A DNA stretch of 64,000 nt from Halapricum desulfuricans (GTDB lineage Archaea; Halobacteriota; Halobacteria; Halobacteriales; Haloarculaceae), in the NCBI RefSeq assembly GCF_017094525.1, contig NZ_CP064788.1, forward strand, positions 2,589,030-2,653,029. Reading direction: 5' to 3'. Positions within the stretch are counted from its first letter, which is position 1; every line of letters starts with the position of its first letter. Shown here piece by piece: positions 8,505 through 27,303 of this stretch. The position numbers were made by a program, and so were the translations under genes. Under the pieces are notes generated by a model. The model did not search any database. It was not told where the DNA came from and saw nothing but the letters and a program-made list of their open reading frames with translations.

Positions 8505-8747
8505 TCACGGGACGAGCTGCTCGCCGTCGTCGTCGTAGACGGTGATGGCGTCGACCGGACAGGTCCGGGCGGCGAACTTCGCGTCGAGTTCGGCGTCCTC
8601 GGGCACCGCACGGACGAACACGCCCCCGTCTTCCTCGCTGTCGGTCAGCACGGCCTTGCCGGCGTCCTCGTCGCGCTCGAAGGCGTCCCACTCCTCGACG
8701 CACTGGAACATCCCGATACAGGTGTCGTAATCGTACTCGATGCGCAT
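8505..8747 (-). CDS. Small single-cluster ferredoxin (C-x5-C...CP type)
   Basis: An 80-residue acidic protein with C10-IGMFQ-C16 and C63-P, the layout of single-cluster 3Fe-4S/4Fe-4S ferredoxins of the form CIGAGQC...CPxxAI. The residue where 4Fe-4S forms keep a third N-terminal Cys (C-x2-C) is Met13, so a 3Fe-4S cluster, or a 4Fe-4S with a non-Cys ligand, is likely. The start MRIEYDYDTC matches the family. It is divergent from hel308 with 80 bases between. It might carry electrons for the Ni-CODH 3 kb away, but nothing links them directly. Confidence 0.8.
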   Translation of the reverse strand: MRIEYDYDTCIGMFQCVEEWDAFERDEDAGKAVLTDSEEDGGVFVRAVPEDAELDAKFAARTCPVDAITVYDDDGEQLVP

Positions 8748-11643: not shown

Positions 11644-11700
11644 AGAAGCGCGGACGACCGTGCCACAGCCGCGCCCCGACTGGCACCTGACCGGAAACTG

Positions 11701-11706
11701 ATTTTT
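11701..11706 (+). terminator. T-run after cgi121
   Basis: Six consecutive T residues follow GA about 58 bases after the cgi121 stop. Archaeal termination occurs at such U-tracts, and the gene beyond has its own promoter. Confidence 0.4.
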
Positions 11707-11842
11707 TGTTGAGTGTAGTTTATGCAATTCTACTCTATCCACTCTACCGGCGGAGATGTCAATAGAAGCGGAAAATACAGGATTTAGCCGTTGATGTTCG
11801 GAAACCCGTCTTACCGCTGACGACCCGGTTATGACTCAATAC

Positions 11843-11849
11843 GTATAAA
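11843..11849 (+). promoter_or_regulatory. TATA element for cooS
   Basis: TATAAAT lies 36-42 bases upstream of the cooS start codon inside an AT-rich stretch (11700-11884) that contrasts with the GC-rich surroundings. Initiation about 25 bases downstream would leave a leader of roughly 10-14 bases. Further upstream, GAGTGTAG (from about 11710) faces CTACTCT (from about 11729), an imperfect inverted repeat that could bind a regulator. Confidence 0.55.
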
Positions 11850-11884
11850 TGTTGCACTGAAATCCCACAGATGCAGAATCTAGA

Positions 11885-13903
11885 ATGGTTGATTATACGG
11901 GACCGTCCTCACCGGAACGTATGAGCGGGGACGAACCAGCGGATCCGGTGATCGATTTCGGTCCGGCAGGCAGCGAGGACCGGACGATGGAGGTACAGCG
12001 CGAGATTGACTATGAGATGCCCGCCGATCGCCTCGAGGAGAGCCAGCCCCAGTGTCCGTTCGGGGTCGCGGGCAGTTGCTGTGACATCTGTTACATGGGG
12101 CCGTGTCGAGTAAGCGACGATGACCAGTACGGTCAAGATCGGGGCGTCTGTGGAGCGACCCCCGGAACTGTCGTCTCGCGCAATCTCTACCGGGAGATCG
12201 CCGGCGGCGTCTCCGCCCATTCCCACCACGCCAGGGAAGCCGTCGAGTTGCTCGAAGACATCGCCGAGGAGAACGCCGCCGATTACGAGATCAAAGACGA
12301 ACGGAAGTTACGGGACATCGCTGAGGACCTCGGCCTTGACGCCGACGGGGACGTGAACGAGGTCGCGAAACGCGTCGCCGAGACGGCGAAGGAGGACTTC
12401 GCTCCCGGCGGCGGGGAGACGCTCAACTGGGTCGAGCGCATGCCGGCCGAGCAGCGCGAACACCTCGACGAACAGGATCTGCTCCCGCTGAGCAGCGTCG
12501 ATCAGCAGGCCTCGCGGGCGCTGGCACAGACTCACCAGGGCAACGACTCCGACACCGGTCACATTCTCAAAAGTGCGCTCTCGGCGGGCGTCGCCGACGG
12601 ATACGCCGGGCTAACGATGGCGACCGACCTGCAGGACGTGATCTTCGGGACGCCGACACCGACGAACGCGACGGCTCACCTCGGCGTCCTCGAAGAGGAC
12701 CAGGTCAATCTCGCCGTTCACGGTCACTCCCCGGAGTTGAGCGAGATGGTGGTCAAGGCCGCCCAGGAACTCGAGGAGGAAGCCTACGAGGTCGGTGCCG
12801 AGGGCATCAATCTGGTTGGGATCTGCTGTACCGGCAACGAACTCGCCGAGCGTCACGGGATCCCGCTGGCGGCCCACAGTCTGCAGTCGGAGCTCGCCAT
12901 CACGACCGGCGCGGTCGACGCGATGGTCGTCGACATCCAGTGCATCTGGCCGGGCATCTCAGATCTGATGGAATGTCACCACACCCGGCTCATCACGACG
13001 ATGGACTACGTGCGGATGCGAGAGGCGACCCACATCCCCTTCGAGGAGGAGACCGCGATGGAGGACGCGAAGGAGATCGTCCGGCAGGCGATCGAGGGCT
13101 ACGAGGACCGCCAGCGCCGCCAGAAGTACGACGTGAACATCCCGGATCGCTCCCAGGAGGCCGTCGTCGGCTTCTCGGATACGGCGCTGCTCGACGTACT
13201 CGAAACGATCGACCCGGACAACCCCGCACAGCCGATCGTCGACGCGATCCAGTCGGGCCAGTTGCGTGGTATCGTCGGCATTGTCGGCTGTCCGAACCCC
13301 AAGATGCGGGAAGCCCAGATGTCCGAGAACCTCATCGAGAACCTGCTCGCCGCCGACGTGTTGCCCGTCGTGACCGGCTGCATCGGTCACATTATGGCCC
13401 AGGGCGGCTATCTCGATCCCGGAACGGTCGACGAGCTGGCGGGCGACGGCATCCGGGATCTGCTTTACACGCTGGGGGACGCGGCCGGACTCGACGGGCC
13501 GCTGCCGCCAGTGCTCCACATGGGGTCCTGTGTCGACAACTCCCGGATCGGAAACGTCATCCGGGCGATCTCGGAGGGAAGCGGTATCCCGACTCGCGAC
13601 CTGCCGGTCGCCGCGAGCGCGCCCGAGCTGATCGCCGAGAAGGCGGTCAGCATCGGGACATGGGCGCTCTCGCTCGGGCTACCACTCCATACGGCACCGG
13701 GGCTGCGCATCGAGGCGAGCGACGCCGTCACGCAGACGCTCACTGAAGACCTGAAAGACATCACAGGCGGCCACCTCATCCAGGACGAGACGCCGGACGG
13801 TGCCGCCGAGAAGCTGATCGACGCGCTGGACGAACGCCGCGAACCGCTGCTGAACGCGTCAGCGGCGGGCGCGAGCGAAGGAACAGCGGCCGACGACGAC
13901 TGA
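11885..13903 (+). CDS. cooS: Ni-Fe carbon monoxide dehydrogenase catalytic subunit CooS
   Basis: A 672-residue monofunctional Ni-CODH oxidising CO to CO2, releasing electrons for a ferredoxin. The N-terminal cysteines C57, C65, C66, C69, C74 and C89 reproduce the D- and B-cluster pattern (C-x7-C-C-x2-C-x4-C-x14-C; the last spacing is one residue longer than in Carboxydothermus CooS-II). C-cluster motifs are all recognisable: HGHSP (279), GICCTGNE (C314/C315), VDIQCIWP (C353), GCPNPK (C469), TGCIGH (C499) and MGSCVDNSR (C549). The acid-base Lys motif AEKA (K586) is also present. The N-terminal ~30 residues and the C-terminus are acidic haloadaptive extensions. It is followed after 6 bases by cooC. 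A start at Met13 is possible. Confidence 0.93.
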   Translation: MVDYTGPSSPERMSGDEPADPVIDFGPAGSEDRTMEVQREIDYEMPADRLEESQPQCPFGVAGSCCDICYMGPCRVSDDDQYGQDRGVCGATPGTVVSRNLYREIAGGVSAHSHHAREAVELLEDIAEENAADYEIKDERKLRDIAEDLGLDADGDVNEVAKRVAETAKEDFAPGGGETLNWVERMPAEQREHLDEQDLLPLSSVDQQASRALAQTHQGNDSDTGHILKSALSAGVADGYAGLTMATDLQDVIFGTPTPTNATAHLGVLEEDQVNLAVHGHSPELSEMVVKAAQELEEEAYEVGAEGINLVGICCTGNELAERHGIPLAAHSLQSELAITTGAVDAMVVDIQCIWPGISDLMECHHTRLITTMDYVRMREATHIPFEEETAMEDAKEIVRQAIEGYEDRQRRQKYDVNIPDRSQEAVVGFSDTALLDVLETIDPDNPAQPIVDAIQSGQLRGIVGIVGCPNPKMREAQMSENLIENLLAADVLPVVTGCIGHIMAQGGYLDPGTVDELAGDGIRDLLYTLGDAAGLDGPLPPVLHMGSCVDNSRIGNVIRAISEGSGIPTRDLPVAASAPELIAEKAVSIGTWALSLGLPLHTAPGLRIEASDAVTQTLTEDLKDITGGHLIQDETPDGAAEKLIDALDERREPLLNASAAGASEGTAADDD

Positions 13904-13909
13904 TCACTC

Positions 13910-14641
13910 ATGAAACTGGCAATCACTGGCAAGGGCGGCGTCGGGAAATCGACGCTGTCGGCAGCGATCGCACAGCACATCGCAGACCAGCGTGAGGTCA
14001 TCGCCATCGACGGCGACCCGGACATGAACCTCGCGGGCACGCTCGATATCGAGCGGCCGGCACCGATCACCCGGGAAACGAGCCTCATCGAGGACCGGGC
14101 GGGCTCTTCGGGCGGCCTCCTGCAGATGCAACCCGAGGTCGAAGACGTTCTCAAGGACTACTCGGTACCGTTCGGGGCGGCCGGGCGACTCGTCACGATC
14201 GGCCCGCCGGAGGGCGGCGGAACCGGCTGCATGTGTCCGGAGAACAACTTCATTCGCGCGCTGGTTAACCAGGCGCTGGACGCCGACGACGTGATCATGG
14301 ACATGGAGGCCGGGATCGAACACCTCGGCCGCGGCACTGCCGACGATATGGACGCGATGATCGTCGTGATCGAACCGTCACGCGCCTCGATCGAGACGGC
14401 CCACCAGATCCAGTCGCTGGCAAACGACATCGGCATCGACGAGATCTACGGCTTCCTCAACAAGGTCCGCGACGAGGCCGAAGCCGAACTCGTCCGCGAA
14501 CAGGCCGATATCCCGATTATCGAGACGTTCGGTTACGATGAGGACGTCGCGGCCGCCGGGCTGCAGGGAACCTCGCCCGTCGAAGAGAGCGAGGCGCTCC
14601 GGGCAGTCGCGGTCGACGTGCTGGATGCGGTTTCGGAGTAA
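13910..14641 (+). CDS. cooC: CO dehydrogenase nickel-insertion ATPase CooC
   Basis: A 243-residue MinD/SIMIBI ATPase that delivers nickel to the CODH C-cluster. The deviant Walker A KGGVGKST (8-15) is at the N-terminus. The C-x-C pair C107-M-C109 in GTGCMCPEN is the zinc/nickel-binding dimer-interface motif that separates CooC from MinD. Further conserved parts are DGDPDMNLAGTL, DMEAGIEHLGRGTA and VVIEPSRASIETA. It starts 6 bases after cooS and surely shares its transcript. No cooJ or cooT homologue is adjacent. Confidence 0.93.
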   Translation: MKLAITGKGGVGKSTLSAAIAQHIADQREVIAIDGDPDMNLAGTLDIERPAPITRETSLIEDRAGSSGGLLQMQPEVEDVLKDYSVPFGAAGRLVTIGPPEGGGTGCMCPENNFIRALVNQALDADDVIMDMEAGIEHLGRGTADDMDAMIVVIEPSRASIETAHQIQSLANDIGIDEIYGFLNKVRDEAEAELVREQADIPIIETFGYDEDVAAAGLQGTSPVEESEALRAVAVDVLDAVSE

Positions 14642-14707: not shown

Positions 14708-15685
14708 ATGACTTCCGGGGCTCGTGGCATCTCACCCGTCGTCGGGGTCGCGCTCCTGATCATCATCGTGACACTGCTCGGGGCGGTGTCCGCGACGATG
14801 GTGTTCGACCTCAGTGAGGAGCGCGAGCCGGCACCCGAGGTCGCACTGGAGATGGAGGTCGAGAACGCATCCGCGGGGGAGTACGTCCTGCGACACGACA
14901 GCGGCGAGACGCTCGACGGTGACAAAGTCGAGATTCTCGGCCTCGAAGATCCCGACACCATCGACGAGATGCGCTTCGTGGCTGGCGACGAACGCACCGT
15001 CGTTCCGACCGACGAAACGGTGACCGTGATCTATCACGGCGAACACGGGACGATCTACACGCTCAGAGAGTTCTCGGTCGATCCGTCGCTCGGATCGTCA
15101 GACGACGGACTCTCGTTGCCCTCGGCCGACGAAGGATGTTCGTGGGTCGACACCGAGTCGGATGGCGGGACGGAAGACGTGAAAGTCGAAGACGGGCTGG
15201 TCGTCGACTGCGACGTCACGACTGAGAAGATCGTGGAAGTATTTGACGGCGGCGCGGTCACCGGCGACACCGAGAGCGAGGGCAACGCCATCGACGTGGA
15301 CGACGGCACGCTTTACGGTGACGCAACAGCCGAGAAAGTCGTCAACGTCCAGGACGGTGCGGTCCACGGGACTGTGGTCTCGACCACCGCGGACGTGAAA
15401 ATCGACGACAGCTACGTCAACGAGTCTATCCAGGGTGCGAAAGTGGTCGAAGTGATCAACGGCGGGACGGTCGAGGGTGACGCGGTGAGTACGAACAAGG
15501 AGGTGAAAGTCAACTCGGGAAGTACTGTCGAGGGTGACGTCACCAGCGGCGACAGCGTCAAACTGACCGATGCGACTGTCGAGGGAGACGTCTACATCGA
15601 CGAAGGCGATTTCGACTGTACGGACTCGACGATCGACGGAGAGTCCTGTAGCGAGTACGACCCGAAGGACCCGGACGATTACTGA
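14708..15685 (+). CDS. Type IV pilin-like N-terminus fused to bactofilin-like beta-helical repeats
   Basis: A 325-residue exported protein. Residues 5-35 (ARGISPVVGVALLIIIVTLLGAVSATMVF) are a class III signal peptide of the haloarchaeal archaellin/pilin N family, processed by a prepilin peptidase. Residues 35-135 resemble a pilin beta domain. From about 160 to 310 the protein consists of short repeats of the form (V/D)-x-V-x-x-G-x-V-x-G-D (for example GGTVEGDAVS, GSTVEGDVTS, DATVEGDVYI), the pattern of polymer-forming bactofilins folded as beta-helices. Such a fusion suggests a surface filament or adhesin subunit. It stands alone 66 bases after cooC. Confidence 0.75.
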   Translation: MTSGARGISPVVGVALLIIIVTLLGAVSATMVFDLSEEREPAPEVALEMEVENASAGEYVLRHDSGETLDGDKVEILGLEDPDTIDEMRFVAGDERTVVPTDETVTVIYHGEHGTIYTLREFSVDPSLGSSDDGLSLPSADEGCSWVDTESDGGTEDVKVEDGLVVDCDVTTEKIVEVFDGGAVTGDTESEGNAIDVDDGTLYGDATAEKVVNVQDGAVHGTVVSTTADVKIDDSYVNESIQGAKVVEVINGGTVEGDAVSTNKEVKVNSGSTVEGDVTSGDSVKLTDATVEGDVYIDEGDFDCTDSTIDGESCSEYDPKDPDDY

Positions 15686-26874: not shown

Positions 26875-26967
26875 CCGATTGCGGGGTCGTTCCCGGGCGA
26901 GAGTACCCGAGGGGAGCGCGCTGGTGATGTCCAAAGCATTTTGTAGGGCTTGAGCCAACGTACGTCC

Positions 26968-27303
26968 ATGAGCGAGCACACCGTGGAGTTCGTGGGCACC
27001 GGCGAGACGGTCACCGTCTCCGAGAAGGAGACGATCCTCGACCGGTGTGTCGAGGAGGGGATCGCTCAGGAGTACTCCTGTCGCGTCGGGATGTGTCTGG
27101 CCTGCTCGGCGAAGATCGTCGAGGGCGAGGTGACCCAGCCCGCCGCGCGCGGTCTCAGCGAGGACGAACGCGAAGAATACGCCCTGACGTGCATGGCCCG
27201 CCCTCAGTCCGATCTGAAACTCCGTCGCGGGGAGTACCCGCCCAGTATCGAAGACGAGGCGATCGACGGCGGAGCGGATGAGCCTGCGGCCGCGGACGAT
27301 TGA
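26968..27303 (+). CDS. [2Fe-2S] plant-type ferredoxin
   Basis: A ~111-residue ferredoxin with the cluster ligands C38-x4-C43-x2-C46 in YSCRVGMCLACSAKI and C75 in ALTCMARP. An acidic C-terminal tail follows the domain. It lacks the acidic N-terminal insertion of the main halobacterial ferredoxin, so it is a paralogue with an unknown partner. A longer reading from 26950 is possible, but MSEHTVEFVG is the family-like start. It is convergent with the DUF1102-like gene at 27304, whose stop directly abuts. Confidence 0.93.
   Translation: MSEHTVEFVGTGETVTVSEKETILDRCVEEGIAQEYSCRVGMCLACSAKIVEGEVTQPAARGLSEDEREEYALTCMARPQSDLKLRRGEYPPSIEDEAIDGGADEPAAADD

Follow-up and report, generated by a model that had tools for sequence, protein, structure and literature searches.

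Relation to described systems

Halanaeroarchaeum sp. HSR-CO and Halalkaliarchaeum sp. AArc-CO reportedly grow on carbon monoxide (CO) and sulfur without formation of H2, with cooS and cooC in one locus, and similar genes are said to occur in three of four Halapricum genomes. Here we describe such a locus in Halapricum desulfuricans (contig NZ_CP064788.1), where cooS and cooC, predicted to encode an anaerobic-type Ni-Fe CO dehydrogenase (CODH) and its maturation ATPase, lie within a stretch of 64,000 nucleotides, hereafter the window. The Halanaeroarchaeum and Halalkaliarchaeum loci (Sorokin et al. 2022, ISME J 16:1534) reportedly also combine CooS and CooC in an anaerobic-type haloarchaeon, and no difference from the H. 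desulfuricans locus was found. The gene pair is therefore of an already published kind, described in a few sulfur-respiring relatives, and an earlier note on this DNA had overestimated its novelty. In the review PMC11332174, both genera are described as isolated with CO as electron donor and elemental sulfur as acceptor, and haloarchaeal CO/sulfur isolates are cited likewise in PMC10949518 and PMC10158934. Library searches on haloarchaea with CooS, carboxydotrophy or CO dehydrogenase yielded no other description among the entries listed, and word searches in three CODH surveys (PMC6344411, PMC13056359 and PMC8776680) turned up no reference to haloarchaea.

The present analysis adds the distribution of the genes, their single branch, the shared two-gene cassette, a genome-wide survey of partners, the finding that the local ferredoxins are not CO-specific, and an upstream repeat at chance level. 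We consider it likely that CooS of H. desulfuricans is functional and feeds electrons from CO, via a house ferredoxin and a Nuo/menaquinone chain, to sulfur reduction. The locus shows strong selection maintaining a strict anaerobes' nickel enzyme in a cytoplasm of high salt content. What is still of interest is the electron acceptor of CooS, along with the altered surroundings of its C-cluster. The two genes, confirmed as real at the coordinates given in the earlier note, are located in the window as follows.

11885..13903, plus strand: cooS, catalytic subunit of Ni-Fe CODH, 672 aa, with an acidic N-terminal extension of about 40 aa
13910..14641, plus strand: cooC, nickel-insertion ATPase of CODH, 243 aa, with a deviant Walker A motif GKGGVGKST and a C-x-C motif

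Identity and metal ligands of CooS

The gene at 11885-13903 is predicted to encode a complete CooS-type Ni-CODH. Its product scored 596.9 bits against the equivalog model of the anaerobic CO dehydrogenase catalytic subunit (NCBIfam TIGR01702, cut-off 478) and 472.5 bits against the Pfam Prismane/CODH family. An identity as hybrid-cluster protein is ruled out by the hydroxylamine reductase/hybrid-cluster models, which gave about 19 bits (19.5 versus a cut-off of 360.8). Solved CODHs align to residues 41-656, the best match being PDB 6elq (E 1.5e-166, 559 bits), which we take to be CODH-IV of Carboxydothermus hydrogenoformans (ChCODH-IV).

The cysteines of the D- and B-clusters (C57, C65, C66, C69, C74 and C89) and the ligands of the C-cluster (H279, C315 or C314, C353, C469, C499 and C549) are each invariant in 36 of 36 aligned CooS sequences; their assignment to clusters follows ChCODH-II. 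H112, H115 and K586 are likewise invariant in all 36, H112 and K586 corresponding to the catalytic histidine and lysine. The alignment comprised six haloarchaeal sequences, one acidobacterial sequence, and 29 taken from those other genomes of the phylum that matched best. This is in agreement with the earlier note, which had read an anaerobic-type Ni-Fe CODH with all six D/B-cluster cysteines and the C-cluster motifs; neither a grouping with hybrid-cluster proteins nor the loss of a C-cluster ligand was found. The same genome possesses another Prismane-family gene (1727740-1729362, minus strand, L001), which is the better of two PF03063 matches, outscores CooS, and presumably encodes a hybrid-cluster protein.

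In the six haloarchaeal CooS, twelve positions are uniformly occupied by a residue other than the one present in 90% or more of the remaining rows, as counted with the Ruminococcus row excluded. P470 directly follows C469, where 97% of the other rows have N, and G501 is placed two residues after C499, where 92% have A. Being confined to haloarchaea and adjacent to the C-cluster, P470 and G501 offer a natural experiment on CODH tuning. Aspartate and glutamate make up a share of 0.16-0.19 in haloarchaeal CooS, compared with 0.10-0.14 in other CODHs; a high share is the usual salt-in signature. At the positions that correspond to the second half of the histidine wire, CooS has acidic residues (E118/E121), as does 6elq (D/E). 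The cooS of Ruminococcus albus plasmid pRUMAL02 (L065), located beside ABC transporter genes, carries D in place of the C-cluster ligand C353, and therefore its product may not be an ordinary CODH.

Distribution and phylogeny

CooS was detected at E below 1e-60 in six of 392 evenly sampled genomes of the order. Relative to the H. desulfuricans protein, the copies in the same genus are 99% (sister species G274) and 86% (G218) identical, and those of three other families are 89% (G155), 66% (G364) and 62% (G010) identical. Within the genus, three of six genomes possess cooS, and one of the genomes lacking it is just 78% complete. In the sample of the phylum, 163 of 392 genomes had a CODH match at 1e-40, and the best proteins beyond the order are 40-46% identical. 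A scan of genome contigs for CooS relatives returned a single match, a contig of an acidobacterial metagenome-assembled genome. Two genomes of family f18 (G392 and G410, loci L032 and L036) encode CooS proteins of 1137 and 1154 aa with an additional C-terminal part of about 500 aa, which by eye resembles the N-terminal domain of acetyl-CoA synthase (ACS); these may be natural CODH-ACS fusions.

A phylogeny of CODHs, as proposed in the earlier note, was calculated from 43 rows: six haloarchaeal sequences, 29 from the best-scoring other archaeal loci, one from L009, two from plasmid records and five solved structures. The haloarchaeal CooS form one branch (support 100/100) with a stem of 1.57 changes per site. 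They are grouped with ChCODH-IV at 93/82, which is below the 95/80 threshold in a tree with few bacterial rows, and the anchors of clade E are on the opposite side. Following the clade names used in PMC13056359, where CODH-IV belongs to clade F, haloarchaeal CooS is probably placed near clade F. This outside placement is provisional because of the long branches and an unusual amino-acid composition, which was flagged for five of six rows. The copy of G155, although from another family, nests inside those of Halapricum (95/82), which points to transfer between haloarchaea.

ChCODH-IV, the closest solved relative by score, shares the ligands of haloarchaeal CooS and its side of the tree, but the haloarchaeal branch is long and more acidic (D+E of 0.11 in ChCODH-IV) and carries P470 and G501. 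According to PMC13056359, the CODH-IV operon includes iron-sulfur and NAD/FAD oxidoreductase partners, which are lacking at the haloarchaeal locus, and the clade E CODH of Nitratidesulfovibrio (Desulfovibrio) vulgaris (6vwy/6b6v) likewise has a small operon with CooC as the sole maturase. The latter enzyme differs in its position on the opposite side of the tree, in its lower score (433.7 bits), and in a transcriptional regulator in its operon, of which none was seen at the haloarchaeal locus. In haloarchaea, CO is also oxidised by the aerobic Mo-Cu CODH (CoxL). This protein is unrelated to CooS, and its family (PF02738) had no match in the six CooS genomes, H. desulfuricans included, and one match in the CooS-less congener G209.

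Carriage by viruses or plasmids was considered and rejected: a search with peptide patterns found no CooS relative in viral contigs, and the two plasmid records with CODH are both bacterial and under 40% identical. Insertion linked to a tRNA was rejected as well. No tRNA was found in L010-L012, those in L013 (two) and L014 (one) are at least 3 kb from cooS, and the single tRNA of the window is 22 kb away.

CooC and the gene neighbourhood

The cooC gene follows cooS after a gap of six bases and is located immediately 3' of cooS in all six haloarchaeal CooS genomes. The motifs GKGGVGKST (K8-T15) and C107-x-C109 are invariant in the six haloarchaeal CooC, which bears out the Walker A and C-x-C motifs recognised before. 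A His-rich N-terminal tail of about 50 residues is present on CooC of G364 and G010, and absent from the other four.

L013:8944-9888, minus strand: CooC with the shared His-rich N-terminal extension, starting MCD-CG-H
L014:8222-9100, minus strand: CooC with the same extension

CooJ is a nickel store, and by analogy the tail is possibly a fused store of this kind.

Open reading frames (ORFs) of at least 90 aa were compared among the 19-kb stretches around the five other copies, and also against the initial 32 kb of the window. Except for G274, which shares the whole region, only cooS and cooC (plus frames overlapping them) are common to the neighbourhoods. As the earlier note had reported, no gene for CooF, ACS or an energy-converting hydrogenase was seen next to cooS-cooC in the window, CooF having been sought in this neighbourhood only. 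A cooF common to the neighbourhoods was not found either, in a comparison in which not every neighbour gene of the other genomes was scanned for ferredoxins. By gene content, cooS-cooC is a two-gene cassette that brings no redox partner of its own, an arrangement general for the branch, and two genes may be enough to confer CO oxidation on a genome.

The genes for a Fer4_15 ferredoxin, Hel308 and CGI-121 occur together without cooS in two CooS-less congeners and in G218, whose cooS is located away from this group. In G155, cooS and cooC are followed on the same strand by a TsaA/TrmO-like ORF (by eye), the small and large subunits of a hydrogenase, cytochrome b, a protease-like ORF, HypC, an AIRS-family (HypE-like) gene and HypA. 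No other neighbourhood suggests a functional link; here it would be with a membrane-bound hydrogenase. An archaeal type IV pilin gene (14708-15685, plus strand) is present in the window between cooC and an FKBP gene; G274 has no pilin counterpart there, and FKBP closely follows cooC.

Candidate electron carriers and downstream modules

Two ferredoxin genes of the window are local candidates for the electron acceptor of CooS.

8505-8747: Fer4_15 ferredoxin
26950-27303: [2Fe-2S] ferredoxin

The earlier note had named these (at 8505 and 26968) as the sole local candidates, which stands for the window; neither is CO-specific, since both also occur in genomes without CooS. The Fer4_15 ferredoxin accompanies Hel308 in the two CooS-less congeners, and a close homologue of the [2Fe-2S] ferredoxin was found in 14 of 14 genomes searched, eight of them without CooS. 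A genome-wide search for ACS, which had also been proposed, gave no CdhC/ACS match (PF03598) in eight genomes, and the controls M. jannaschii and M. acetivorans were matched.

The proposed search for hydrogenases revealed four [NiFe] large subunits (PF00374) in the H. desulfuricans genome and no group-4 match: the only Complex1_49kDa match (PF00346) is of Nuo type. The enzyme was thus classed neither with CODH/ACS complexes nor, with no adjacent CooF seen and no group-4 match, with hydrogenogenic CODH/ECH systems (ECH, energy-converting hydrogenase). Divergent PF00374 matches had suggested a group-4 hydrogenase, but family scans assigned them to sulfhydrogenase-like and NuoEFG-linked enzymes. 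Two of the four hydrogenases are of membrane-bound type (the small subunit was scanned for one). The other two are encoded close together in H. desulfuricans (G000).

G000:C1:2754493-2759251 (L024:9494-14252), minus strand: sulfhydrogenase-like group 3 [NiFe] operon with protease-like, large, small, FAD/NAD and Fer4_22 subunits
G000:C1:2759438-2765765 (L024:14439 to L025:1765): NuoE, NuoF with C-terminal Fe-S motifs, NuoG-like, hydrogenase small and VhuA-like large subunits in a row

The large subunit of the NuoEFG-linked set is closest to VhuA (416.7 bits, under the cut-off of 800), and the set resembles the electron-bifurcating [NiFe] hydrogenase HydABCSL. Matches to PF00374 were present in five of the six CooS genomes and absent from G364; of the two congeners without CooS, G259 has many such matches and G209 has none. 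At G259:C34:120587-127364, the large subunit of a hydrogenase, matched by PF00374 as well as PF00346, lies beside antiporter-like subunits, and may represent a group-4 energy-converting hydrogenase in a haloarchaeon.

The genome of H. desulfuricans also possesses four Psr/Phs-type molybdopterin catalytic subunits, each followed by a ferredoxin-like ORF (one of them scanned); NrfD was confirmed at two of these loci. A fifth catalytic subunit is TtrA-like. Complex1_49kDa and molybdopterin oxidoreductases were present in all eight genomes. The complex I-like genes of H. desulfuricans are split between nuo at about 806-811 kb (L066) and antiporter-like subunits at 1988040-1992531; they are also in two distant clusters in G274, and within about 9 kb in G218 and G155.

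Proposed function and alternatives

In the reading that we consider likely, CooS would act as a homodimer, loaded with nickel by CooC, in an anaerobic sulfur-reducing haloarchaeon, and would oxidise CO (CO + H2O -> CO2 + 2 H+ + 2 e-). The electrons would leave via the B- and D-clusters to a common ferredoxin of the cytosol, for which the core [2Fe-2S] ferredoxin of haloarchaea is the most likely candidate, and pass through the Nuo-like complex and menaquinone to polysulfide-reductase-like molybdopterin complexes of sulfur respiration, with the soluble hydrogenases as a secondary outlet. The cassette would supply just catalyst and maturase, the carriers being those of the house. If so, a haloarchaeal [2Fe-2S] ferredoxin taking electrons directly from CooS would be an unusual partner. 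Ferredoxin, the Nuo-like complex and molybdopterin oxidoreductases are present in all six CooS genomes and hydrogenase is not, which favours this route from CooS to a sulfur reductase. Growth on CO with sulfur is known for relatives of this strain.

Several observations weigh against this reading. The protein that it calls CooC matches just general MinD/ParA/ArsA-type and CbiA/ArsA P-loop profiles (NCBIfam, Pfam), none of them CooC-specific, so that the name is drawn from motif and adjacency. At P470 and G501, next to C-cluster cysteines, residues that are almost invariant elsewhere have been replaced, and activity may be affected. None of the molybdopterin catalytic subunits reaches any NCBIfam cut-off, and sulfur as their substrate is therefore putative. 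The same downstream modules also exist in CooS-less genomes, hence co-occurrence singles out no route. The potential drop from CO to a haloarchaeal [2Fe-2S] ferredoxin is large, and an acceptor of lower potential could thus be the true one.

The four hydrogenases of H. desulfuricans, together with the position of cooS-cooC upstream of the membrane-bound hydrogenase genes in G155, would fit a CO-dependent hydrogen metabolism, in which CooS electrons go mainly to [NiFe] hydrogenases and yield H2 or NADH instead of sulfide. We regard this as unlikely: CO-grown haloarchaeal isolates are said to have formed no H2 from CO, G364 has CooS without a PF00374 match, CooS-less G259 has many such matches, and the H. 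desulfuricans genome gave no group-4 match. It is also quite improbable that the enzyme merely scavenges or detoxifies CO at low flux without energy gain. Such a role would agree with a solo cassette lacking energy-conserving partners, with the acidic second half of the histidine wire shared with 6elq, and with the neighbouring position of ChCODH-IV, which is termed 'high-efficiency CO-scavenging' in a title listed among the references of PMC13056359; nevertheless, that placement is not strongly supported, the branch is long, and relatives grow with CO as electron donor, as stated in PMC11332174.

The unique P470 and G501 could also be taken as signs of another function replacing CO oxidation, such as reduction of CO2 to CO, or else redox sensing or hydroxylamine chemistry by the prismane fold. 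This is very improbable, considering that all ligands and the catalytic histidine and lysine are intact, CooC is kept in all six genomes, no ACS match that could use the CO was found, and a better-scoring Prismane-family gene exists elsewhere in the genome. A wider proposal, which we put forward tentatively and hold to be rather doubtful as a whole, is that the haloarchaeal CooS form an old sub-branch of their own within Ni-CODH, with an altered second shell next to two C-cluster cysteines (P470/G501) and an acidic surface. The gene pair would move from one haloarchaeal family to another as a self-sufficient cassette, and CooS would pass its electrons to the core [2Fe-2S] plant-type ferredoxin, not to a CooF-type [4Fe-4S] protein, with the His-rich CooC tail doing the job of CooJ in two lineages.

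Upstream region, selection and codon usage

The gene pair is preceded in the window by an intergenic region.

11644..11884, plus strand: AT-richer intergenic region of 241 bases, with the TATA-like element CGTATAAATG about 40 bases before cooS

The region could be aligned only to that of G274 (209 of 244 aligned positions identical), which shares the TATA-like element; upstream regions of the more distant copies were not alignable. Of the AT-rich promoter with an imperfect inverted repeat described in the earlier note, the AT-richness and the TATA-like element were recovered, and a regulatory inverted repeat was rejected. The best repeat within the 241 bases was matched or exceeded in 141 of 200 dinucleotide shuffles, and a repeat search of this intergenic stretch listed none. 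A perfect pair of 10-base arms is present in the corresponding region of G274 only.

Between H. desulfuricans and G274, 71 codons of cooS differ synonymously and seven non-synonymously, which shows purifying selection. Among 45 window genes of at least 200 aa, called by a simple ORF scorer, cooS is nearest to the mean codon usage and cooC ranks 31. The GC content at third codon positions (GC3) of cooS is 0.82-0.88 in the five hosts whose loci have about 66% GC; in the sixth, where the locus has 47% GC, the value is 0.40. The acquisition from anaerobes suggested earlier is plausible as a single old event; a recent import from bacteria is countered by the typical codon usage and by GC3 that tracks the host, which argue for cooS as an old resident.

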